Origin: Sphingobacteriaceae bacterium | GTDB lineage: Bacteria > Bacteroidota > Bacteroidia > B-17B0 > Aurantibacillaceae | Assembly: GCA_947480015.1 (NCBI GenBank) | Contig: CANKBS010000032.1 | Coordinates: 1 to 36,529, forward strand | Reading direction: 5' to 3' | DNA: 36,529 nt | Shown here: positions 6,747 through 18,004 of the stretch, piece after piece | Numbering within the stretch: the stretch's first letter is position 1 | How the letters are laid out: the number at the start of each line of letters is the position of its first letter | Made by a program: the position numbers and the translations under genes | Notes under the pieces: model-generated | Told to the model about the DNA's origin: nothing | Seen by the model: the letters and a program-made list of their open reading frames with translations, nothing else | The model's database searches: none

Positions 6747-6812
6747 AATCTTACATCTGTAATAAATTCCCGTAAATGTAAAGTTACCAAAACTTTTCTG
6801 TGGTTACCTTCA
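6747..6812 (+). promoter_or_regulatory. Copy 1 of the shared upstream element plus -7 box
   Basis: AATCTTACATCTG lies at 6747-6759. Exactly 58 bases after its first base begins the octamer TACCTTCA (6805-6812), which differs at one base from the TACCTTTA found in copies 2 and 5. A half-repeat TTTAC (6730-6734) sits 20 bases upstream of CTTAC, as in copies 3 and 5. No TTG is seen 19 bases before the -7 box. The ATG of the next gene follows 33 bases after the octamer. Same-strand, fixed-distance conservation suggests an activator-dependent promoter. Confidence 0.6.
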
Positions 6813-6845
6813 TGGGTATAAGTCATTAGACTTAAGGGCTGTGGC

Positions 6846-7187
6846 ATGAATCGTAATAACAAAGGAATAAAGGTGGCTTTTACCCCTATTATTTTTGGAA
6901 TAATAGGGGTTTTAGCAGGTGGCTTTGTGGTGAAACCCGAAGCGCTTGCCTCATATTTGGAATCTTTCAAAAACATAAAAGGGATTGCTTTTGCGCTCTG
7001 TACTGGTATTTTTTGGGGCCCCCTCGTTCATTTTAATGTGAAAAAAAACAAAGCCTTTCTGAACGTACGTGAGTTTAATGCAAACAAAATGCGTTTGTTA
7101 CCATACCCTATGTTTGAGGTGCTTGCTCCAATAAATCACGATTCGCTGCATAAACACATACCTAAATGGATGCTAAATACATCATAA
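6846..7187 (+). CDS. Small two-span membrane protein, unknown function
   Basis: 113 aa with hydrophobic segments at about residues 11-29 and 44-63, then a basic, soluble C-terminal half ('NVKKNKAFLNVREFNANKMRL'). No family recognised. Support for a real gene comes from its position just after the conserved upstream element and -7 box, with a plausible leader. It ends 96 bp before the histidine kinase on the same strand with no clear terminator between them, so the two may be co-transcribed. That would place the kinase inside the putative regulon. This is inference. Confidence 0.6.
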   Translation: MNRNNKGIKVAFTPIIFGIIGVLAGGFVVKPEALASYLESFKNIKGIAFALCTGIFWGPLVHFNVKKNKAFLNVREFNANKMRLLPYPMFEVLAPINHDSLHKHIPKWMLNTS

Positions 7188-7283
7188 TCAGAAAAAGAAT
7201 TTTTTTCGTGCAGAATAACTTGGCTGTAGGTTTTATCAACTAGCCAATGCAGGTAAAATTGCTTGTGCTCCTATTAAAAACAA

Positions 7284-10200
7284 ATGCTTCTAGCAAACAT
7301 TTTTTTATTTAACCAATTAAAAGAAGTGCCTTACGCGAAATTGAATATTCTAATTGTTGGAGATAATCCGGGTGACTTTATTCGCATTGAAGAGTATATT
7401 CGCTCAAAGGCTGCGCATGTTGCCATTCACAGCGCCTTAAACTTTATCGAAGCTAAAAAACGTTTAACTCAAAAACACAAGTTGGATGTTATTTTACTCG
7501 ACCTGAGTTTACCCGATGCGGGGGGTGAAAGTTTGATTATAGCCATGATAGGTCTTGCTGCAGAAACTCCCATTATTATTTTAACCGAAAATACCGATGA
7601 AGCTTTTAGCATAAAAATGCTTTCGCTTGGCATTGCCGACTGCTTGCTCAAAGCTGAATTAAATCCTTTGCATTTACACAAAAGGATTTATTACAGTATC
7701 GAAAGAAAACGTTACCAAGCCGAACTAAAAGAATCAGCCCGTTTTTACCACAGCACCTTTAGCGCAAGTCCCATTCCCATGTTTTTAGTTGAGCCTGCAA
7801 CCTTTCAAATAATTGAGGTGAACCAAGCTGTTATTACTAATTATGGGTATACCCGTGCGGAAATTGAAGCGCGATCAATTCTTGAAATCTACCCAAAAGC
7901 AGATAAAAAAGAAGCCCGAAAAATAATTAAAAGTTTAGCAAAACATAAAGAAATTTATACGGGTTATACACGACACAGCAAAAAAAACGGAGAAATCATG
8001 GATGTTGAGCTTCGCAGCAGTGCTATAAGTCTAAAAGGCAAAGAAATTCGAGTAGTCATTGCCCTCGACATTAGCAAACAATTAAAAGCCGAAGAAGATT
8101 TAAAATTGAGAAAGCGTCGTTTTGAAGGCCTCATTCAAGATAGCGCCGATTTGATTGCTGTAGTTGACATGAATGGCAATTACACATACGTTAATCCCTC
8201 TCCCGATAATCCTTTTCGTATTGACCCTGCCAACCTATTTGGTCTAAATATCTTTGATTTTATACATGAGTTTGATAAAGCAAGATTACGCACACAATTT
8301 ACTTTACTATCGTCACAAAGAAAAGTAAGAACTGCCCCATTCCGTTTTTTGGTAGATGGTTCATATATTTGGATAGAAGCCACCGCCAGTAATTTACTTG
8401 ATGACCCATCCATAAACGGCATTGTAATCAATTCACGCGACGTATCAGAACGTTATGCTTTTGAAGAAAAACTTAGCCAACAAGCAGCTTTATTCAGATC
8501 CATCATAGAAAAAGATACAGAAATGAAAATGCTCCTTAAACCCGACGGCACCATTCTATTCGGCACGCCTTCTTTTAAACAATATATGGGTTACGAACCC
8601 GAAGATTATCTTGGCAAAAATGAAACTGATTTTGTTCATCCGGATGACGTAGGCTATTTATTTGAAAAAATAAATGAAAGCAGTAAAAACCCTCAGTCTA
8701 TAAAGAGTTTTGAAGTGCGTGTAAAAAACAAGGCGGGTGAATACCGCTGTTGCGAAAAAACAATTACCAATCTCTTGGATGATCAAAATGTGAATGCCTT
8801 GGTTTGTTCGTTTAGAGATATAACCCATCAAAAACAATACGAACTGAAAATAAAAGAAGCCAACGAACGCTATAACCTCGTATCACTTGCCAACAATAAT
8901 GCCATTTGGGATTACGACTTTAAAACCCATCGCACCTATATTTCCGGAACGGGTTATTACGAATTATTTGGGCACAAGGTGATAGATGCATTCACGGATA
9001 GAAAAACCTGGCTAAGTTTAATTCATCCCGATGAACGTGATCATGTTCTCTTTAATTTAAGACAATTTGTACGTACATCCAACAATTCGCAATATGTGCA
9101 AGAGTACCGATTATTAAGGGCCAATGGGTCTTATACGCATGTGAGAGATAAATTATTTATTGTGCGTAAAAACGCACAACCCATCAGGTTAATTGGAGCC
9201 CTGTCAGATATAACCCAAGAAATAAAAGAAGTGCAAAAGTTAAAATTACTTGAATCAGTGATTACCAATGCAACTGATGCTGTGATGATTACCGATGTGC
9301 CTGTTGATGCTAAAAGTGCCCCAAAAATAATTTACGTGAACGAAGCTTTTTCGCGCATGAGTGGTTTTAAAAAAGATGAAATTTTAGGTAACACGCTCGG
9401 CATGTTTAATGGTCAAGATAGCAGCGAAACCTCACTGTTAGTGATCGAACATGCTTTTAATAAAAGGGAGGGCTGCGACGTTGAAATAATCAACTATAAA
9501 AAAACCGGTGAACAATACTGGACCAACATTGCGATTGCACCGGTTACGGATTACAAAGGCACGGTCATCAACTTTATTGTTATCGAGCGCGATATTAGCA
9601 ACCGTAAGTTACGGGACCAAGAACGCGAGAATCTTATCACTGAATTAATTCAAAACAATAAAGATTTGCGTCAATTCTCATACGTTACCTCACACAACCT
9701 GCGTGCCCCAATTGCCAACTTGCTTGGCTTATCGAGCCTTATTGATTATTACAAAATAAATGATCCCACACTTAAACAAATTCTCGAAGGCATAAAAATA
9801 TCCACCTTACGTTTTGATGAAACCATTCGTGATTTAATCAGTGTATTAGAAGTAAAAGATCATAGATTTATCAAAAAAGAGAATTTGGAAATTGCAGACG
9901 TGTGTAATAACGCACTTGCAAATTTGAAGAAGGAAATTAATGAAAGCAAAGCCCTGATTAGTATTGATTTTAGCGCAGCAACCTACGTTAATTTCAACAA
10001 ATCCTATCTGGTAAGTATATTTTTTAACTTGATCTCCAATGCCATAAAATACCGTTCCCCTGATCGCCCTCCTATACTAAGTATTAGCAGCCATGATAGC
10101 GAAAACAGTGTGATTCTTATATTTAAAGATAATGGCTTAGGAATTGATTTGGATTTACATAAAGATAAATTATTTAATCTGTATCAGCGCTTTCACGATA

Positions 10201-10328
10201 ACACCGATGGAAAAGGATTAGGCTTATTTTTGGTTAAATCGCAAATTGAATCTTTAGGTGGCACTATCGACATTGTGAGTGTCGTTGGTGAAGGCACCCA
10301 ATTTACGTTAAGTTTTGGAAAGAAATGA
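7284..10328 (+). CDS. Hybrid multi-PAS sensor histidine kinase with N-terminal receiver
   Basis: 1014 aa, with no membrane span or signal peptide, so probably cytoplasmic. Domains in order: receiver (about 19-145, phospho-acceptor D73 in 'VILLDLSLPD', conserved Lys K123), then about five PAS/PAC modules (near 155-265, 280-390, 405-515, 525-645, 655-775), a HisKA-type dimerisation domain with phospho-His H804 in 'VTSHNLRAPI', and an HATPase_c domain with N box 'NLISNAIKY' (about 915), G1 'DNGLGID' and G2 'GKGLGLFLV'. All kinase motifs look intact. The receiver acidic pocket reads 'IVGDNPGD' where 'VDDNPGD'-like pairs are normal, so one acidic residue is Gly. The output regulator is not fused. 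The nearest candidate is the single receiver protein at 12215. The signal is unknown. Confidence 0.93.
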   Translation: MLLANIFLFNQLKEVPYAKLNILIVGDNPGDFIRIEEYIRSKAAHVAIHSALNFIEAKKRLTQKHKLDVILLDLSLPDAGGESLIIAMIGLAAETPIIILTENTDEAFSIKMLSLGIADCLLKAELNPLHLHKRIYYSIERKRYQAELKESARFYHSTFSASPIPMFLVEPATFQIIEVNQAVITNYGYTRAEIEARSILEIYPKADKKEARKIIKSLAKHKEIYTGYTRHSKKNGEIMDVELRSSAISLKGKEIRVVIALDISKQLKAEEDLKLRKRRFEGLIQDSADLIAVVDMNGNYTYVNPSPDNPFRIDPANLFGLNIFDFIHEFDKARLRTQFTLLSSQRKVRTAPFRFLVDGSYIWIEATASNLLDDPSINGIVINSRDVSERYAFEEKLSQQAALFRSIIEKDTEMKMLLKPDGTILFGTPSFKQYMGYEPEDYLGKNETDFVHPDDVGYLFEKINESSKNPQSIKSFEVRVKNKAGEYRCCEKTITNLLDDQNVNALVCSFRDITHQKQYELKIKEANERYNLVSLANNNAIWDYDFKTHRTYISGTGYYELFGHKVIDAFTDRKTWLSLIHPDERDHVLFNLRQFVRTSNNSQYVQEYRLLRANGSYTHVRDKLFIVRKNAQPIRLIGALSDITQEIKEVQKLKLLESVITNATDAVMITDVPVDAKSAPKIIYVNEAFSRMSGFKKDEILGNTLGMFNGQDSSETSLLVIEHAFNKREGCDVEIINYKKTGEQYWTNIAIAPVTDYKGTVINFIVIERDISNRKLRDQERENLITELIQNNKDLRQFSYVTSHNLRAPIANLLGLSSLIDYYKINDPTLKQILEGIKISTLRFDETIRDLISVLEVKDHRFIKKENLEIADVCNNALANLKKEINESKALISIDFSAATYVNFNKSYLVSIFFNLISNAIKYRSPDRPPILSISSHDSENSVILIFKDNGLGIDLDLHKDKLFNLYQRFHDNTDGKGLGLFLVKSQIESLGGTIDIVSVVGEGTQFTLSFGKK

Positions 10329-10480
10329 CAGCAAGCGGATTCGTTTTTGGCCACTAGTTTGCGTGTTGGTGTGATACAATTAATACAACAATACCCTTCT
10401 AAGAGCCTGCTGTATTTGTTAAAAGGGAATTGTCGGCTAGTTAGTACTGTTCCATTGGCGATGTATAAAAATGGAAAAAA

Positions 10481-10488
10481 TATATTTG
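10481..10488 (+). promoter_or_regulatory. Candidate -7 box with long leader
   Basis: TATATTTG matches the Bacteroidota -7 consensus TAnnTTTG. A TTG at 10455-10457 is 23 bases upstream, longer than the usual 19 or so. If used, it would give the next gene a leader of roughly 290 bases. The rest of the 10329-10786 gap is AT-rich and shows no gene. Confidence 0.3.
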
Positions 10489-10786
10489 ACATTGACTAAT
10501 TTTTTTGATAAATTTAAAGTTTGATTAGCTAAAAAAAGAGCGTTTTTAAAACGAATTCAGCGGGAGTGCATTAAAGGTAGAATCAACTTTAACATTCTAA
10601 ATTATTCACTAAATCCCAGTAGGCTTCAAAAAAACCTATTGGCAACTAAAATTTACAACCTATTTTTTTTGAATAAGGTGATTAAAAAATAGTAATGACA
10701 ACAAATTGCAATAAAAAAGAATATATTTTAATAATGTAAAACGTGCTTTTTAAAGCTTTTAAAATAAAGTCAAAGCAATAAACAAT

Positions 10787-12199
10787 ATGATTAAACTAAG
10801 AAAAGTAATAAGTGATTTAGCGGAAGATTTTTATAAGAGCATTGAGGAGAATTTAATTAAAAATAAAGCCGATAATTTTTTGTTTTTGTTTCAATCGTAT
10901 CGTTCAAAAACTATAAGTGATGATGGGATTATCAAAACGCTTAATATTAATTCGAATTCGTTTTATGTTTTAAAATCACGATTATACGATAAAATTCAAG
11001 AGTTCATGTCGGGCGATATACACTCTAATGTGGAAGAGGTGATTAAACAATTGCACCTTATACCACAGGTATGTTACACTTCCTCCCGCGAAATTGCAGC
11101 TGCCTTCCTCCAAAAACTTGAAAAAGATTTGTTAAGACATGATATGCACAACGAATTACTGGTGGTGTATTCGGCCCTTAAAAAGATTCACCTTTATTCT
11201 GAAAAGTATTTCTTTTATTCGCAACTTTACAATAAACACATTGCTTTTAGCCTCTCCATCGAAAAATCAGAAGAAATTCTGGGTAATTTTAACCTGGCAT
11301 TAGGGCAGTATTTCTTTTCGCGCTCAACAAAATCTCATGAAACCCTTAATTTTCTAAAAAAAGGCATTTCAGAACACTATGCCTTAAACCCATCCAAACA
11401 AATTGAGATTATTAAGAACCTTATCGAATTGAAATTGTACTTTTTCTGTGGCGAGCCTATTAATAAGGATTATAGCGTAGAAGAAATGCTTATGCAAACT
11501 CAAAAGATTTTGCAAAATCTTCCTGAATCTTCACCTAGTAGAAGTTGGTTGCCGGTATTGGATTATTTGTTTTTCGAATATTATGTGAGTATTAATCAAA
11601 CCAAACAAGCACAAATTTATTACGAAAAAGTAAATGCACTGCGCGATACCCTTTTACTTTACAATAACATTGCCTTTACCCCTAATTTTTTGATCACCAA
11701 AATTGTTTATTTACAACAACAAGATCGTATTTCTGAATTGCAGGGGGATTACGGAAATAACTTTCTCTATGATCCCGAAGACCGTCACTCACAGGTAATG
11801 TTAGGCATTTACAACGCAATGATTTCCTTCTATGCCGGCAAACCAAAAGAAGCAGCCTCCCGTTTAAATGAAATTCTCAACATAAATAGCTTTAAAGATT
11901 TTTTCCACATCAACACCGATATTAAATTAAGTCTAGCTTACTTTTATTTGTGCCTCAAAGAGTATGACTTAGCAGACAGTATATTAAAAAACATTAGCCG
12001 TAAAATTAAATCGGATGGCTTAGAAAAATATACGAATGTGATTGATCTCATCAAAGTATTTAATGAAGATATTAAACAAGGAGAAAACAAAATAACGGCT
12101 AAACAAAAAGATTATTTTACTTTATTTCTCGCCAGAAATAACGGGGAAAATAAAATAATTAGTCCACTGGTTTACGAACTTAAAAAGAAATATACTTAA
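10787..12199 (+). CDS. Helical-repeat (TPR-like) protein next to a response regulator
   Basis: 470 aa, almost wholly helical by composition. It begins 'MIKLRKVISDLAEDFYKSIEENL' and then has a segment 'IIKTLNINSNSFYVLKSRLYDKIQEFM' that recalls a small helix-turn-helix-like or docking region. The remainder looks like degenerate TPR or similar alpha-helical pairs ('AREYFFYSQLYNK'-type Tyr-rich helices). No signal peptide, membrane span or catalytic motif. It sits 15 bp upstream of a CheY-like gene on the same strand, so they are very likely an operon. A partner role in signalling, such as a scaffold or sensor, is inference. Family not named. Confidence 0.75.
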   Translation: MIKLRKVISDLAEDFYKSIEENLIKNKADNFLFLFQSYRSKTISDDGIIKTLNINSNSFYVLKSRLYDKIQEFMSGDIHSNVEEVIKQLHLIPQVCYTSSREIAAAFLQKLEKDLLRHDMHNELLVVYSALKKIHLYSEKYFFYSQLYNKHIAFSLSIEKSEEILGNFNLALGQYFFSRSTKSHETLNFLKKGISEHYALNPSKQIEIIKNLIELKLYFFCGEPINKDYSVEEMLMQTQKILQNLPESSPSRSWLPVLDYLFFEYYVSINQTKQAQIYYEKVNALRDTLLLYNNIAFTPNFLITKIVYLQQQDRISELQGDYGNNFLYDPEDRHSQVMLGIYNAMISFYAGKPKEAASRLNEILNINSFKDFFHINTDIKLSLAYFYLCLKEYDLADSILKNISRKIKSDGLEKYTNVIDLIKVFNEDIKQGENKITAKQKDYFTLFLARNNGENKIISPLVYELKKKYT

Positions 12200-12214
12200 T
12201 AATTACCAACAAAT

Positions 12215-12631
12215 ATGAAAAGGAAGGAACCGAAATTCAAGTATAGAAACGTAATGCTAATTGATGATAATGAACTCGACAACTTCATTAACGAAAAAAC
12301 CCTTGAGGCCAATTTGTTTTCTAAAAAAATCTATTCGTGCACCAGTGGGAAAAGCGCGCTCGAGTTTTTAAATAACATCGTAACGATGGGTGATCAGTTT
12401 GCTGAAGTTTATCCTCAGGTAATTTTTATTGATATTAACATGCCGATGATGGATGGTTTTCAATTTATCGATTATTTTAAAAAGGAATCAGAAAAACAAT
12501 TGCAGAAACCAAAACTGGTGCTCTTAACATCTTCTGTTTACAATGAGGATCGCGAAAAAGCAAAATCCATTTCAAAGGATATCGTATTTCTTAATAAACC
12601 TTTAAAAAAAGAAATGCTAGACGCTCTTTAA
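12215..12631 (+). CDS. Single-domain CheY-like response regulator
   Basis: 138 aa, receiver domain only. The conserved positions are present: acidic pair D17-D18 ('LIDDNELD'), phospho-acceptor D73 ('VIFIDINMPMMDG'), T105 ('LLTSS') and K128 ('LNKPLKK'). There is no output domain, so by family knowledge it would act through protein binding or as a phosphorelay shuttle. It is encoded 15 bp after the 470-aa helical protein. It could accept phosphate from the orphan-like hybrid kinase at 7284, but that pairing is only inferred from proximity. Confidence 0.92.
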   Translation: MKRKEPKFKYRNVMLIDDNELDNFINEKTLEANLFSKKIYSCTSGKSALEFLNNIVTMGDQFAEVYPQVIFIDINMPMMDGFQFIDYFKKESEKQLQKPKLVLLTSSVYNEDREKAKSISKDIVFLNKPLKKEMLDAL

Positions 12632-12810: not shown

Positions 12811-12876
12811 AATCTTACATATGTATTAGGCCATGTTTAATCAAAAGCAATGCCGATTTATTCCGCCGTACCTTTA
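12811..12876 (+). promoter_or_regulatory. Copy 2 of the shared upstream element plus -7 box
   Basis: AATCTTACATATG occupies 12811-12823 and TACCTTTA occupies 12869-12876, start to start 58 bases. The ATG follows 17 bases after the octamer, giving a very short leader. There is no -33 TTG at the usual place. Unlike copies 1, 3 and 5 it lacks a clear TTTAC half-repeat 20 bases upstream. Confidence 0.6.
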
Positions 12877-12893: not shown

Positions 12894-13160
12894 ATGAAAA
12901 CTCTAACAATCTCACCGGTAATTAACCTTAGCTCCTTCTACAACTTCGCCAAAATGAGTCTTACTCAAAAAGAAGAGGTTTTAAAACACAAAGGTATATG
13001 CTTTGATTGTTTTTGCGAAAATAACCTAAAAACCAACGTCTATTACCTGAATGGTTTTTATGTGGAAGAAATTTTTGATAATATTAAAAACATCCTTCAA
13101 GACATCATTCCTTATAAACATGGGTATCGCATCCAGCCCGAAGATTTTATATTTAACTAA
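12894..13160 (+). CDS. Small soluble protein, unknown function
   Basis: 88 aa, no signal peptide or membrane span. A helix-forming stretch ('MSLTQKEEVLKHKG') is followed by a two-Cys element ('CFDCFCEN') and beta-type strands ('NVYYLNGFYVEEIFDN'), a layout reminiscent of short Bacteroidota proteins I cannot name. The first six codons (MKTLTI) are nearly identical at nucleotide level to those of the 191-aa gene at 17374, although the proteins differ afterwards. It is a single-gene unit with its own copy of the shared promoter element and its own terminator at 13184. Confidence 0.7.
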   Translation: MKTLTISPVINLSSFYNFAKMSLTQKEEVLKHKGICFDCFCENNLKTNVYYLNGFYVEEIFDNIKNILQDIIPYKHGYRIQPEDFIFN

Positions 13161-13183
13161 ACGAATTTAAACGATTGTTGATG

Positions 13184-13213
13184 CGCCGTGGCTAAACCAC
13201 GGCGTTTGCTTTT
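13184..13213 (+). terminator. Rho-independent terminator after the 88-aa gene
   Basis: Perfect 8-bp GC-rich stem CGCCGTGG / CCACGGCG with loop CTAAA, then TTTGCTTTT. The following 460 bases, up to the promoter element at 13674, contain no ORF, repeat or RNA gene that I can support. Confidence 0.85.
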
Positions 13214-13673: not shown

Positions 13674-13739
13674 AATCTTACATATGAAATAAGCTATGGT
13701 CAAAGGGGAAAAATACCATCCTAAACCGTCGTTTCTTTG
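13674..13739 (+). promoter_or_regulatory. Copy 3 of the shared upstream element plus -7 box
   Basis: AATCTTACATATG at 13674-13686 and the -7-like TTTCTTTG at 13732-13739 are again 58 bases apart start to start. A second, imperfect copy (AATCTTTACG at 13653) lies 20-21 bases upstream, making a direct repeat about two helical turns apart. The 47-aa peptide starts 28 bases downstream of the octamer start region. Confidence 0.6.
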
Positions 13740-13766: not shown

Positions 13767-13910
13767 ATGAAACCTGCATCACCTAGCAACCATAACAGTG
13801 AATCAGAATCAACAAATTTTTTGTTAGACACTAGTTTATTTGTTGAAATAGCGATTGACATTTTTTATATCGTTCTACTTATTTGTTGTTTCGAACTTCT
13901 TATTTCTTAA
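13767..13910 (+). CDS. 47-aa single-span membrane peptide (cassette B)
   Basis: Too short for routine ORF lists. ATG at 13767, TAA at 13908-13910. A polar N-terminus (MKPASPSNHNSESESTNF) is followed by a hydrophobic span (about residues 24-45, 'VEIAIDIFYIVLLICCFELL'). It has the same design, length and genomic position as the 45-aa peptide at 15921: first gene after the shared promoter element, 23-27 bases before a secreted protein. That conserved order in two places is the main evidence that it is real. Function unknown: a small membrane regulator, chaperone or anchor are options. Confidence 0.6.
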   Translation: MKPASPSNHNSESESTNFLLDTSLFVEIAIDIFYIVLLICCFELLIS

Positions 13911-13937
13911 TACCAAAGTCGTCCATCATTACGAGCC

Positions 13938-15074
13938 ATGAAAACTCTAGCCCTCAGTCTAATCCTCTTTTGTAATTTAATTACTGCGCAAACCTATGTA
14001 AGTTACAATGCCCAGTTAAAGTGGCTAGAAGTGAATAACGTAAGCGCGCAAAATACCAGCTCAACAGTTAAATCACTTCAACCGATTCCTGATATCGGTC
14101 AAATCAATATTGAAAGTCTTCCTCCATTAAACGCAAGAAGCATGACGCCTTTTAATTTAAAATTGAACCACAAAGGGAGTTACCGTTTCAATTTAAGTTC
14201 AACTATGAGTATCCCAACAAACCTTTGTGTATACATTGAAGATCTTAACACGTCGCAATTATTCGACCTTAGAACTGCTAAAACCTGTTCGTTTTCAGTA
14301 AACGACACCACTCTATCCATTCGTTTTCTATTACACATTACACAACCCATCCGACTTAGTGCAATTGCTAACACGTGTTCAAAATCAACTAATGGCAAAA
14401 TCATTCTTAAAAGTAACATAACTACTAATTGGACATTTGTATGGAAAAATGCTAAAGGCATTATTGTGAAGGTTAATAATACCAGCAAATTATGCGACAC
14501 TGTAAAAAACCTTTGCGCCGGAATGTATTACCTAAAAGCTATTTCTAATACCAATTGTTGCGCAAGTATAAGCGACAGTATAGAGGTAAGAACAGCCGGC
14601 AGTTTGGTGGTGCAAGCTACGCTATTCAAAAAACACGACGTCCACGATAATGCAACACTTATAAAATCAACTAAAGGAAGTCATATTAAATCGACTTATG
14701 CTATTAATTGGACAGAAAGTGATGATTCTGTGCCGGTAAAAAATGCCAATCCAAGTGCTTATGCGCAAATTTTACAAGACTCCAAAAAATGTCGCGAAGC
14801 CTTTACAAATTTAGTTGTTAAACCAAACACAACCTTGATCAAGAACTATCCAACCATCTTTCCGGATATGTATCTCATGATAAGTTTAAACCCCTTGAAC
14901 AAAATTATGATACCCGAAAGCATTTACCAACTCCTAATGAAAGCCGAAACATTAAACGCCATCAATAAAAAAAGAGAATCTGAACACAACAGAATATATG
15001 CCTTTCATTTTAAAGGGCAAAAAGAAAAACACAAAGCAAACCTAAGCACCCCTATTGTATTGCGTGTTAATTAA
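13938..15074 (+). CDS. Secreted beta-rich protein, cassette B
   Basis: 378 aa with a signal peptide cleaved near residue 17 (LITA-Q). Residues about 98-219 are homologous to residues 106-227 of the protein at 16082: both have 'CV(Y/F)IED....(Q/K)(L/F)FDL', 'RFL(L/M)H(I/V)..PI', a 'TCS...NGK' segment, 'W...WK(N/D)A.G' and a 'SDSI.V' end. I recall this domain type near the C-termini of T9SS proteins, but no T9SS sorting domain is present here. The C-terminal 150 residues ('TLFKKHDVHDNAT' to 'LSTPIVLRVN') match nothing I know. Eight or more Cys suggest disulfides. Probably co-transcribed with the 47-aa peptide upstream and the 186-aa gene 12 bp downstream. Confidence 0.8.
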   Translation: MKTLALSLILFCNLITAQTYVSYNAQLKWLEVNNVSAQNTSSTVKSLQPIPDIGQINIESLPPLNARSMTPFNLKLNHKGSYRFNLSSTMSIPTNLCVYIEDLNTSQLFDLRTAKTCSFSVNDTTLSIRFLLHITQPIRLSAIANTCSKSTNGKIILKSNITTNWTFVWKNAKGIIVKVNNTSKLCDTVKNLCAGMYYLKAISNTNCCASISDSIEVRTAGSLVVQATLFKKHDVHDNATLIKSTKGSHIKSTYAINWTESDDSVPVKNANPSAYAQILQDSKKCREAFTNLVVKPNTTLIKNYPTIFPDMYLMISLNPLNKIMIPESIYQLLMKAETLNAINKKRESEHNRIYAFHFKGQKEKHKANLSTPIVLRVN

Positions 15075-15086
15075 AATAAAAACGCC

Positions 15087-15647
15087 ATGAAACCCTCCAA
15101 CATCCTCCAATCATCAAAATATTCACTTATTGTGAATATCACATCCATCACATTATTATTCTTTCTGTTTTTACTTCTACTTTTTAATTTACCCGCTTCG
15201 GCTCAGTCGACCGATTCGCTAGCTTGTCTCGAAATTACCGGCAAAGTGTTAAATGTTTTTGAAGGCGAAGACGCTTCCTGCAAAGTGGAATTGATGAACA
15301 AAGGCGAAGTGGTGCGCACACTCATTTTAAAAGAAGGCAAAGACCATTTTCATTTAATATTATCTAAAGATCAGTATTACGCTATTCGCATCTCTAAAAC
15401 AGGATACGTGCAAAGAATTCTAGAAATCAATACCGCGATGTTAGTTGAACCCGACGGCCTCTATACTTTTCATTTTAACACCGAACTTATTAGCGAAAAA
15501 ATAGCTAAAAAATTAAATCAAGACGCACTAGACTTTCCAATAGCAATGATTTATTTTAATCATGATGCGGATTGTTTTGATTATTCGAAAGAATACACCG
15601 AAGCCCTAAAAAATGAAATGTTTACTGAAAGTAAAAAACAAAATTAG
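15087..15647 (+). CDS. Exported carboxypeptidase-regulatory-like protein (paralog 1)
   Basis: 186 aa. A long N-terminal hydrophobic signal (about residues 15-38) ends at SAQ, so it is exported or anchored. Mature part: 'CLEITGKVLNV...CKVEL' then 'F.LILSKDQYYAIRISKTGYV', a beta-sandwich pattern like carboxypeptidase-regulatory or surface-repeat domains in which a short Gly/Lys turn precedes 'YAIRISK.GY'. It is clearly paralogous to the 191-aa protein at 17374 across about 130 residues, including 'LYTF.F.T.LI.E..AKK.N.D.L'. It lies 12 bp after the secreted 378-aa gene and is followed by a strong terminator, so it closes the cassette B operon. Confidence 0.8.
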   Translation: MKPSNILQSSKYSLIVNITSITLLFFLFLLLLFNLPASAQSTDSLACLEITGKVLNVFEGEDASCKVELMNKGEVVRTLILKEGKDHFHLILSKDQYYAIRISKTGYVQRILEINTAMLVEPDGLYTFHFNTELISEKIAKKLNQDALDFPIAMIYFNHDADCFDYSKEYTEALKNEMFTESKKQN

Positions 15648-15675
15648 GGTGATTTTATCTATAATAGGTGTGATT

Positions 15676-15708
15676 AGCCGGGATGGGGGTCCCGGCTTCT
15701 TCTTTTTT
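15676..15708 (+). terminator. Rho-independent terminator of the cassette B operon
   Basis: Perfect 8-bp stem AGCCGGGA / TCCCGGCT, loop TGGGGG, then TCTTCTTTTTT. It follows the 186-aa gene by about 30 bases. Confidence 0.9.
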
Positions 15709-15826
15709 ACCACTTTTTTGTGTATTTACGGGTTTATACCCCAAAAATGGCTTAAGGTCTTTAATCACGGCACTTGGTGAGCTTTAACAACTTTAGGTGC
15801 TCCTTATCTTACCCCAATTCTTACAA

Positions 15827-15892
15827 AATCTTACATATGCAACATGCCGAAGTTTAAGGCAAATAATTCTGTATACTTTGTAACGACATTTG
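15827..15892 (+). promoter_or_regulatory. Copy 4 of the shared upstream element plus -7 box
   Basis: AATCTTACATATG at 15827-15839, and GACATTTG at 15885-15892, exactly 58 bases start to start. Extra CTTAC repeats lie 10 and 22 bases upstream (15820 and 15808). A competing TTTG at 15877 is nearer but does not keep the spacing. The 45-aa peptide begins 28 bases after the octamer. Confidence 0.6.
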
Positions 15893-15920
15893 ATTCAATA
15901 GATCCATTAAAATTGAGACC

Positions 15921-16058
15921 ATGAAAACGATCAACGACAACGACCAATCAAACGAACCAAATAATCTTACCATCATTAATGAGTTTTGGATAAAAATAGT
16001 TATCGGCATTTTTATTGTCGTAGTAAATATTTGCCTCATCGATCTCATACTAGATTAA
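15921..16058 (+). CDS. 45-aa single-span membrane peptide (cassette C)
   Basis: ATG at 15921, TAA at 16056-16058. Polar, Asn/Asp-rich N-terminus (MKTINDNDQSNEPNN) then one hydrophobic span (about residues 23-43, 'IKIVIGIFIVVVNICLIDLI'). It matches the 47-aa peptide of cassette B in length, topology, promoter context and distance to the following secreted-protein gene, though sequence identity is low. The start codon context ACCATGAAAAC resembles those of neighbouring regulon genes. Function unknown. Confidence 0.6.
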   Translation: MKTINDNDQSNEPNNLTIINEFWIKIVIGIFIVVVNICLIDLILD

Positions 16059-16081
16059 CTAATCTTCAAAAAAAACAGATC

Positions 16082-16996
16082 ATGAAAGCCATTATCCTTT
16101 TTTACGCGAGCCTCCTGTTTACAGCATATGGGGCTTGCGCCCAAACCGATAATGAGACAGATGAACCTGAATCCATCGAACACGTAATTACGGAAGACCA
16201 TTGCTACATTGGCTTTTCGGCCGATGCAGGTGGCATTACACACGAAGATCAAACCCCGCATAAATGTAAAGAACTCCTTATTTACAGCTTACCGGCCGTT
16301 TCAGTGAGTGCCTTCGACATTCAAGTAAATTTCGACAACAAAGGAATTTATGCCTTCAAAAGAGATTCCAAGCTTATTGTTCCTGTTGATGAATGTGTTT
16401 TTATAGAGGATGTTTTTACCGGGAAATTTTTCGATCTTAAATCCACACAATCGTATACTTTCGCCATTAATCATAACACACGCGAGACCCGCTTCTTAAT
16501 GCATGTAAACAAACCTATTTCAAAAGTGACTTTCGCGCCAACGTGCTCTTATAAACTCAATGGCAAAGCCATCGTAAAAACCAATTTGCCCGGCATATGG
16601 CAATATACCTGGAAAGACGCCATTGGTAATACTTTAACCGTTCACAGCGACCTAGGAAAATCAGATACCCTTAAAAATATTGCGCCAGGCATTTACAACA
16701 TTGTAGCCACCAGTAATAATGAATCGTGCTCCATGCTTTCCGATTCGATAGTAGTTAAAAGCAAGCCACAAATTAAAATAAAACCAATTATTAATAACAC
16801 AACATGCAGCAATTGCAAAGAAGGGCAAATTAACGCCAGTAATATTGAAGGTGGTACGGCCCCTTTTAATCACAAATGGTCAAATGATCAAAGTGGGCCG
16901 GTTATTAAAAACCTGAGCCCTGGGGTATATATTTTGAGTTTAAGCGATGCAAATGGTTGCATGGACACGTCGTATTACGCGATTCGTAAACCCTAG
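16082..16996 (+). CDS. Secreted protein with SprB-like repeat, cassette C
   Basis: 304 aa from the ATG at 16082, chosen because a clean signal peptide starts there (MKAIILFYASLLFTAYGACA-Q). The longer frame from 15986 overlaps the 45-aa peptide and has no signal. Residues 106-227 are homologous to the 378-aa protein of cassette B. Residues about 231-300 form an SprB-type repeat ('GGTAPFNHKWSND', 'LSPGVYILSLSDANGCMD'), known from the Flavobacterium gliding adhesin SprB and other surface proteins. No T9SS sorting domain follows, so export beyond the periplasm is uncertain. Start lies 23 bases after the peptide stop. Confidence 0.82.
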   Translation: MKAIILFYASLLFTAYGACAQTDNETDEPESIEHVITEDHCYIGFSADAGGITHEDQTPHKCKELLIYSLPAVSVSAFDIQVNFDNKGIYAFKRDSKLIVPVDECVFIEDVFTGKFFDLKSTQSYTFAINHNTRETRFLMHVNKPISKVTFAPTCSYKLNGKAIVKTNLPGIWQYTWKDAIGNTLTVHSDLGKSDTLKNIAPGIYNIVATSNNESCSMLSDSIVVKSKPQIKIKPIINNTTCSNCKEGQINASNIEGGTAPFNHKWSNDQSGPVIKNLSPGVYILSLSDANGCMDTSYYAIRKP

Positions 16997-17281
16997 AATT
17001 TAGATCAATTTAAAAATTATCCTCAATTGAAAATAATTCCAATACAAAAGCAAGCAGAATATATCTAAACAAAATAACACGCCACAATTCAGCTGTTTTT
17101 TTGTGAATGGTTCCTCGAAAATGACGACATCGATTTGGGCTTACACAGCCATTCAAAAAACCAAACAAACGCTGCCTCTGCATTCAGCCATTACCTCTGA
17201 AATCATTAGCAGTACCTGTTTTCATGTTACCAATGCATCACAAGACCACAGATAAAAAAACAGTTTTACAAAACAAACATA

Positions 17282-17347
17282 AATCTTACAGGTGTTGTTA
17301 AACCTGATTTTTTGAAAGAAATAGACGGCACACACCACGTACCTTTA
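17282..17347 (+). promoter_or_regulatory. Copy 5 of the shared upstream element plus -7 box
   Basis: AATCTTACAGGTG at 17282-17294 and TACCTTTA at 17340-17347 are 58 bases apart start to start. A TTTAC half-site (17265-17269) lies 20 bases upstream of CTTAC, as in copies 1 and 3. The gene ATG is 26 bases after the octamer. The rest of the 16997-17373 gap shows no gene that I would defend. Confidence 0.6.
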
Positions 17348-17373
17348 TCACAACAAATTTAAAAGCTCTTGTT

Positions 17374-17949
17374 ATGAAAACTCTCACAATCAGCAACCCC
17401 CAAACCAACTCAACGCTCACGCCTTTCAACGCTCATCTTGTTAAAGCATTCACGATCATTGGTTTTATTTTTTTATGCCTCGGCAGTGGCGCCGGAAATT
17501 TACACCCTATTAAAATCGACTCAAATGCTTGCTTAGTGGTTGTAGGAAATATTTTGAATGTTCATGATAAAACAGACAATAAATGTAAAATCGAGCTCAT
17601 TACGTATAACACGGTGACTGATTCTGTTTTATTAAAAGGTTCTAAACATAGATTCAGATTTGTTTTGTCGAAAGATATGAATTACGCAATCCGTATTTCT
17701 AAAAAAGGCTACATCAGCAAACTGGTAAGTATTGACACTAAATTTTACACGGAATCGGATGTGCTTTATACGTTTGAATTTACCACCGACCTCATTAAAG
17801 AAGAAGAGGCTAAAAAATTTAATCCCGATGTGTTAGAACTTCCGGTAGCTTTAATCAAATTCGACTACCAGCACAACTATTTCTCATACAACAAAAAATA
17901 CACCACTCAAATTAAAAAAGAACTCTACGCAAGCAATACCCAAGAGTAA
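17374..17949 (+). CDS. Exported carboxypeptidase-regulatory-like protein (paralog 2)
   Basis: 191 aa. A 22-residue polar leader precedes the hydrophobic segment (about 23-42), so this is either an unusually long signal peptide or a membrane anchor. The mature part shares 'CK(V/I)EL', 'F.LSKD..YAIRISK.GY', 'LYTFEF.T.LI.EE.AKK' and 'KYT..IKKE' with the 186-aa paralog at 15087. The first codons (MKTLTIS) nearly duplicate those of the 88-aa gene at 12894. Here the gene has its own promoter copy rather than following the secreted protein directly, unlike its paralog. Function unknown, probably an envelope protein. Confidence 0.8.
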   Translation: MKTLTISNPQTNSTLTPFNAHLVKAFTIIGFIFLCLGSGAGNLHPIKIDSNACLVVVGNILNVHDKTDNKCKIELITYNTVTDSVLLKGSKHRFRFVLSKDMNYAIRISKKGYISKLVSIDTKFYTESDVLYTFEFTTDLIKEEEAKKFNPDVLELPVALIKFDYQHNYFSYNKKYTTQIKKELYASNTQE

Positions 17950-17975
17950 AACAAACTCTCTTTTAGCTTTTTTGG

Positions 17976-18004
17976 AAGCGTGGTTTTAGACCGCGCTTTT
18001 TTTA
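17976..18004 (+). terminator. Rho-independent terminator after the 191-aa gene
   Basis: Stem AAGCGTGGT / ACCGCGCTT (9 bp with one G-T wobble), loop TTTAG, followed by a run of T. Confidence 0.85.

Follow-up and report, generated by a model that had tools for sequence, protein, structure and literature searches.

A candidate promoter-defined regulon of exported proteins, with clade-limited putative membrane micropeptides, in an uncultured member of the Bacteroidota

We analysed a stretch of 36,529 nucleotides from a Sphingobacteriaceae bacterium (assembly GCA_947480015.1, contig CANKBS010000032.1; the whole stretch is hereafter called the window), in which two neighbouring gene cassettes, between positions 13767 and 17949, combine a micropeptide of fewer than 50 amino acids (aa) with genes for exported proteins. 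We found that the micropeptides look like genuine genes, and that the units to which they belong share a promoter-like element placed at a fixed distance from a -7-like box. To judge from its recurrence in related genomes, this element marks a small dispersed regulon, which is the larger finding beside the micropeptides. Neither the family of peptides nor the regulon defined by this element seems to have been described before: in the open literature searched, with the terms that we used, we found no account of the motif, the family or the system. A preliminary description of the same DNA had proposed an undescribed system built around the small open reading frames (ORFs); its novelty seems to hold for the family and the regulon, but the small ORF is not the conserved core. 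Absent from that description were the promoter element common to the units, the regulon itself, the locus of the candidate regulator (10787-12631) and a fourth co-regulated unit, which encodes an 88-aa protein.

The micropeptide family

The first cassette (B) contains a 47-aa micropeptide with one predicted span (13767..13910; this and the other regulon features of the window are on the forward strand), a 378-aa secreted protein (13938..15074) and a 186-aa exported protein (15087..15647), and reads as one unit ending in a terminator-like hairpin (15676..15697). In the second (C/D), a 45-aa micropeptide, also with one predicted span (15921..16058), is followed by a 304-aa secreted protein (16082..16996) and by a 191-aa exported paralog of the 186-aa protein (17374..17949), with a hairpin of the same kind at 17974..18000. 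The six ORFs, their lengths and the gaps between micropeptide stop and next start (27 nt in B, 23 nt in C) are as first described when re-read in the sequence, and so is the paralogy of the larger proteins, with 32% identity over 248 aa between the 378- and 304-aa proteins (E 3e-39) and 39% over 174 aa between the 186- and 191-aa proteins (E 1e-43). The cassettes, presented as duplicates, are indeed homologous, but B is not exactly duplicated in C/D: the 304- and 191-aa genes each lie behind a separate promoter-like stretch, and the latter is a separate unit. Above their cut-offs, Pfam and NCBIfam assign no family to any of the six proteins, and the two micropeptides match no Pfam family at E<=1 and no NCBIfam family. 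Their pairwise similarity is not detectable (E 14), although the family profile does join both.

A search with the aligned peptides against 87 genomes of the family (E<=0.001; the order-wide set consists of the same 87 genomes) gave seven members in three genomes (three in G000, three in G003, one in G004) and no match in the remaining ones. The seventh member (G003, 4188467) by itself scores only 8e-4 but clearly corresponds to the G004 peptide. Leave-one-out profiles were compared with 500 shuffles per member, which preserved the composition of both halves, and with 474 N-termini of hydrophobic ORFs; each of the six members tested, those found first, outscored all shuffles and all 474 N-termini, the thinnest margin being that of the peptide on contig C5 of the same genome as the window (16.9 bits, versus 15.7 for the best shuffle). 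The orthologous 37-aa pair of G003 and G004 gave proportions of synonymous (pS) and nonsynonymous (pN) differences of 0.82 and 0.26, versus 0.59/0.32 and 0.18/0.43, in the same order, for the other two frames, and the paralogous pair formed by two regulon peptides of G003 gave pS 0.87 and pN 0.16 over the last 26 codons. Both pairs evolve as coding sequence under purifying selection. The proposal that these peptides are real and easily missed is supported.

The micropeptides are 37-48 aa long, and the 19-residue hydropathy maximum of five members is 2.2-3.0 (a value of hydropathy alone). Conservation is highest near the C-terminus: most members share the core hhNIC[CL]I towards the end of the span; in the 37-aa peptide of G003, NVS replaces the NIC of this core. 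Immediately downstream of each of the seven lies a gene for a protein that begins in a signal-like manner (as judged by eye), at gaps of 19, 23, 27, 53, 54, 58 and 65 nt, and these partners are of several kinds (378/304-type, 186-type, 146-aa and THIVGG-type). Five of the seven lie behind the regulon motif described below; one (G003, L069) is the second ORF after a protein of the 88-aa family.

The distribution of the family is at odds with the earlier idea that selection widely holds the cassette architecture. Most homologous loci have no micropeptide, which is the outcome that the preliminary description had itself named as a refutation, so that it is a clade-limited addition and not a conserved core. 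The counterparts of the window locus, which we identified through a downstream DEAD-box helicase gene (helicase neighbours recognised by eye), illustrate the point: the order in G003 is motif, 46-aa micropeptide, 146-aa gene, 195-aa gene and helicase, and in G004 it is motif, 139-aa gene, 195-aa gene and helicase, with no separate micropeptide. A 186-family gene follows the motif immediately in G005, G016 and G034, and in G011 the motif stands immediately before a 186-family copy with an in-frame stop. A 304-type gene is paired with a 186-type gene in G013 and G031 too, and likewise in G052, a genome of another genus. The micropeptide therefore looks like a late gain in one small clade, and the motif promoter with the 186 and 304 families looks like the older core.

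A promoter element with fixed spacing

The sequence AAATCTTACATATG occurs 80-100 nt ahead of the ATG in three units, those of the 88-aa ORF (start at 12894) and of both micropeptides, and a variant occurs before the 191-aa ORF. The motif AATCTTACATATG is at 12811..12823 in unit A (-7-like box at 12869-12876), at 13674..13686 in unit B (box at 13732-13739) and at 15827..15839 in unit C (box at 15885-15892); the variant AATCTTACAGGTG of unit D is at 17282..17294 (box at 17340-17347), in agreement with the proposal that the 191-aa gene has its own promoter. In these four units, and in a third micropeptide cassette elsewhere in the genome, the motif starts 58 nt ahead of the box, which matches 5 of 6 positions in A, B, C and D. 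A further copy, AATCTTACATCTG (6747..6759), with 4 of 6 positions of the box at +58, precedes a 113-aa membrane ORF (6846-7187) and a gene for a response regulator (RR)-PAS-histidine kinase (7284-10328). The box resembles TAnnTTTG, which is described in PMC6847099 as the -7 element of Bacteroidota.

The loose form AATCTTACANNTG has eight matches in the 3.77-Mb genome, five of them in this contig, compared with two for the reversed control. The three matches elsewhere in the same genome lie upstream of the third micropeptide, which a 189-aa paralog follows (C5), of the genes for two proteins (143/147 aa) whose homology is with the N-terminal half of the 304/378 family (C17), and of a gene for a sigma54-type response regulator (C19, 22601). 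Among the 40 genomes of the genus, AATCTTACATMTG gave 84 matches, in 20 genomes, versus six for the reversed controls. The spacing was analysed on the 72 of these 84 exact sites that lie in selected loci, palindromic sites being counted on both strands. A TANNTTTG-like box (at least 5 of 6 positions) is found exactly at +58 in 39 of the 72, the next best offset having 4. The alignment of the same sites shows, besides the TAnnTTTG-like box, a C conserved 13 nt upstream of the motif (56/72) within a TTACA-like repeat, which precedes the element by about 20 nt. An ORF was found after 30 of the 72 sites, with a 900-nt look-ahead that misses long ORFs. The composite AATCTTACA-N53-TTTG had 128 matches in the 87 genomes versus 25 for reversed controls, and in other genera it occurs just before 186-family genes (G052:C5, G054:C285, G058:C13, G071:C9). 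The full palindrome AATCTTACATATGTAAGATT is present in G005, G008 and G034 (L140, L145 and L166), which suggests that the motif is bound by a dimeric factor.

A candidate regulator

A gene that co-occurs with the motif encodes a 470-aa helix-turn-helix (HTH)/tetratricopeptide repeat (TPR)-like protein (10787..12199), and adjoins, in 16 of 17 loci, the gene of a 138-aa single-domain receiver (12215..12631 in the window; Pfam Response_reg, E 7e-11). The protein is present in 20 of the 40 genus genomes; 18 genomes have motif and protein together and 18 have neither, with two genomes having the motif only (G021 and G028, with 1 and 2 sites) and two the protein only (G026 and G029) (Fisher test, p 5e-7, kinship ignored). 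The model of the protein (predicted local distance difference test score, pLDDT, 89.6) consists of helices only: residues 45-75 form an HTH-like pair, and a TPR-like superhelix is also seen. Its best VIA matches are Rap-type receptors (4gyo on top, Z 16.1), with separase (15.6) and LGN (14.1) next to them, and Foldseek returned no match at E<=0.001; as far as a model goes, these generic matches establish TPR architecture only. Within about 10 kb of the gene, part of the loci contain the 186-family, the 88-aa family (clustered there in four loci), an outer-membrane-like family, hybrid kinases and NarL-type regulators.

The last of these provide the main alternative for the factor that reads the motif, namely a NarL/LuxR-type response regulator or another protein, the 470-aa protein being only a linked partner. 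We regard this as a serious possibility, if not the one that we would choose. Of 18 clustered loci, 11 have a NarL-type gene in the vicinity of the 470-aa gene, in G008 such a gene follows a motif at about 460 nt, and the exact palindromes are what a dimeric factor would bind. Nevertheless, at E 1e-40 that NarL protein finds no counterpart in the motif-bearing genomes G000 and G003, and the occurrence of the motif is followed far more closely by the 470-aa gene. As universal reader of the motif, a NarL-type regulator was rejected, since at this threshold it was not found in these two genomes. We retain the 470-aa protein as the candidate regulator.

Genes behind the element and other features of the window

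The genes found behind the motif encode 186-family proteins, outer-membrane-like proteins (as judged by eye), relatives of the 88-aa protein, FIST-domain proteins, kinases and response regulators. The 88-aa protein of unit A (12894..13160, with a terminator-like hairpin at 13183..13205) belongs to a regulon family and is 41% identical to a 112-aa protein of G003 (E 3e-18). As a copy of the motif precedes both the 113-aa ORF and the kinase gene of the window (6747-10328), the sensor kinase may itself be a member of the regulon. A double-length version of the 186-family (about 298 aa) stands behind the motif, followed by a receiver gene, at L233, L234, L235, L238, L239 and L246 (with one motif mismatch in L239), and a marginal PEGA match was obtained for a double-length relative. 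At L147, L167, L171, L191 and L193, outer-membrane-like proteins (by eye) with S[ST]GNGHG, whose hydrophobic stretch comes after a long N-terminus, are behind the motif. FIST-type sensor proteins are directly behind it at L148 and L151 (FIST N and C by Pfam for L148 only). The sigma54-type response regulator gene lies about 100-115 nt behind the motif in two species (C19:22601 of the genome of the window, and L138, that is G004 C1:5308300-5311700), and at L138 it is followed by a FIST-like gene, recognised by eye, the Pfam run having covered only the copy of the genome of the window.

The preliminary description had called the 186-aa product an exported beta protein, and its model (pLDDT 82.1) is consistent with this, as it predicts an N-terminal hydrophobic helix, a beta-sandwich, and extra C-terminal strands and a helix. 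Residues 44-140, approximately, resemble transthyretin-like, CnaB and carboxypeptidase-regulatory domains, which account for many of the 50 matches listed (Z 5.3-7.5, mostly 5.4-6.2 for these domains; for instance 5aq0, Z 6.1; 8bdw, Z 5.8; and the SusC N-terminal extension 9hfj, Z 5.8). With Z under 8, the resemblance may merely reflect a common arrangement. A sequence search of the PDB with a profile of four paralogs gave nothing at E<=1, and a first scan of genome contigs with the 186-family alignment gave no confirmed match. In a tree of 18 proteins of the family no branch passed both support limits; the sole useful join unites the 191-aa protein with the C5 paralog (90/92), and the order of duplication is not settled by this tree. 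The 304- and 378-aa proteins have signal-like N-termini (by eye). The former has a sub-threshold similarity to SprB, an 857-aa homolog matches SprB and PKD, and a sorting domain of the type IX secretion system (T9SS) above cut-off was found in neither protein (Por_Secre_tail 16.3 bits versus 27 for the 304-aa protein, none for the 378-aa protein).

Taken as a whole, the scan for terminators was barely above shuffles (6 versus 4.6), the scan for sigma-70-type promoters was no richer than shuffles (20 found, 18.8 expected), and neither Rfam matches nor tRNA genes were found in the window. Further along the contig (21412-25819) lie polyhydroxyalkanoate synthase genes (PhaC-like and PhaE-like).

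Proposed mechanism and alternatives

The best explanation of the whole, to which we would give a probability of about 40%, combines a regulon core, its control by the kinase/receiver module with the 470-aa protein, and a micropeptide that modulates a membrane partner. A signal would be read by the neighbouring histidine kinase/receiver module (7284-12631), and the 470-aa protein, together with the receiver, would be the likeliest factor to act at AATCTTACATATG. From this site, 58 nt ahead of the -7 box of the housekeeping sigma factor, the promoters of envelope and exported genes would be turned on, the presumed outputs being secreted proteins of the 304/378-type, transthyretin-like exported proteins of the 186-type and the 88-aa protein. 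In one small clade, some units would have gained a micropeptide of 37-48 aa that is probably co-transcribed. We infer that it sits in the inner membrane, with its mostly acidic N-terminus inside, and ends just after the single span; via its conserved core it could modulate a membrane partner, most likely a sensor of the regulon, in a negative feedback, its second-likeliest role being in the export of the protein encoded next. What the computations show is a peptide family under purifying selection, its place before exported-type genes (7 of 7), a promoter-like element common to the units and fixed in its spacing, and the co-occurrence of this element with the 470-aa gene; the transcription units, the regulator, the topology, the partner and the direction of any effect are our inference.

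Several observations weigh against this scheme. The co-occurrence of the motif with the 470-aa protein may be due to joint inheritance, the HTH of that protein is seen in the model only, with no Pfam HTH match in 17 members, and the net charge of its first 80 residues is only +1. The -7 box is missing at +57 to +60 from 28 of the 72 sites, so that some of the motif sites are chance occurrences. The composite gave 64 matches versus 11 in controls in the 20 genus genomes that possess the 470-aa gene, but also 11 versus 5 in the 20 that do not, and the separation is thus less sharp for this loose form. As to the micropeptide, it is present in only three genomes, compared with 20 genus genomes for the 470-aa protein, so that the regulon does not need it. 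For the 37-aa micropeptides of G003 and G004, no TCTTACA is found in the 900 nt or so that precede them; the gene ahead of this non-regulon peptide in G004 encodes a SiaC-type regulatory phosphoprotein (L197, 1843-2964, minus strand). Finally, the conserved position of the micropeptides is before exported-type genes and not beside kinases, which favours a role in export over feedback.

The micropeptide could accordingly be an accessory of export or anchoring, which aids translocation, retention or folding of the next-encoded protein. This is a tenable reading, although we think it rather unlikely to be the right one. The position before exported-type genes is the one feature common to all seven members, which makes export nearly as likely a role as feedback; it is maintained with partners of several kinds and by the two members outside the motif regulon. 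On the other hand, the relatives of the partner proteins manage without a micropeptide in most genomes, and no domain is known that all partners have in common: SprB-like repeats are shared by the THIVGG- and 304-type partners (by eye) and are not found in the 186-type.

A role as leader, in which the ORF would adjust translation of the gene that follows, for example as a stalling peptide whose residues act in the ribosome and not in the membrane, is improbable in our opinion. The ORFs are upstream, short and best conserved near the C-terminus, and the gap between the C5 micropeptide and its partner (L023, 3101-3158) contains a small inverted repeat, GGGAT-taacc-ATCCC, features in favour of a leader; however, the hydrophobic span is retained at gaps that range from 19 to 65 nt, and no arrest motif was recognised by eye. 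Still less credible is a remnant of the signal-sequence end of a former exported regulon protein. Several outer-membrane-like and 139/146-aa proteins of the regulon do begin similarly, with an extension and a hydrophobic stretch, but this likeness is by eye, the profile scores of four such N-termini are not significant (best E 0.17), and purifying selection together with seven intact ORFs argues against decay; a signal-sequence origin was therefore rejected. One might finally imagine pheromone precursors, whose hydrophobic C-terminal peptide, released from the membrane, is read inside the cell by the 470-aa protein, which then fires the motif promoters, including their own, as an RRNPP-like system outside Bacillota, a very remote idea, given that most genomes with the 470-aa gene have no micropeptide and that inspection by eye of 14 loci (those with cut or unclear 470-aa genes being excluded) revealed no recurrent small hydrophobic ORF, hence no adjoining precursor gene, within 500 nt upstream or 600 nt downstream of the 470-aa gene.

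Modulation of a sensor by the micropeptide, within a regulon that the 470-aa protein would control, remains our preferred reading. For uncultured Bacteroidota, the result is a concrete, testable regulon, with a single exact promoter element, a candidate regulator and a defined set of exported proteins lacking family names. Our data also illustrate how homology, selection and promoter context can together validate single-span micropeptides outside two profile libraries, and that operons of exported proteins can acquire such peptides late, within a single clade. If it is true that the micropeptide acts on a sensor or on export, it offers a handle on the genetics of the system.

Comparison with known systems

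The closest parallel for the micropeptide is MgrB, an inner-membrane peptide of 47 aa that belongs to the PhoP regulon and is described as interacting with the sensor PhoQ and repressing PhoP-regulated transcription (PMC2789325). The window peptides resemble it in size (about 47 residues), in their predicted topology of one span with the N-terminus inside, and in their apparent expression from the promoter of a signal-controlled regulon with sensor kinases. They differ from it in having no Pfam match, almost no tail after the span and a place before exported-protein genes. By analogy, they may act as feedback modulators of a sensor. The 470-aa protein, with its HTH-like N-terminus and TPR superhelix in the model, is reminiscent of the RRNPP receptors of Bacillota (Rap, NprR, AimR), whose survey in PMC10075063 is described as covering complete Firmicutes genomes only; unlike these receptors, its gene is beside a receiver gene and has no recurrent adjoining small hydrophobic ORF, and separase is about as close in structure.

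Among exported proteins, the 186-aa protein is set apart from the transthyretin-like, CnaB and carboxypeptidase-regulatory domains by the lack of a sequence family match and by its extra C-terminal strands and helix. The SprB similarity of the 304-aa protein, although sub-threshold, and the SprB and PKD matches of the 857-aa homolog recall the SprB/PKD-type surface proteins linked to the T9SS, from which the 304- and 378-aa proteins differ in having no sorting domain above cut-off. As for the promoter, the box at +58 of the motif is like that of the housekeeping promoter of Bacteroidota (TTTG or TAnnTTTG, as given in PMC6847099), to which the regulon adds an extra upstream element at a fixed distance.

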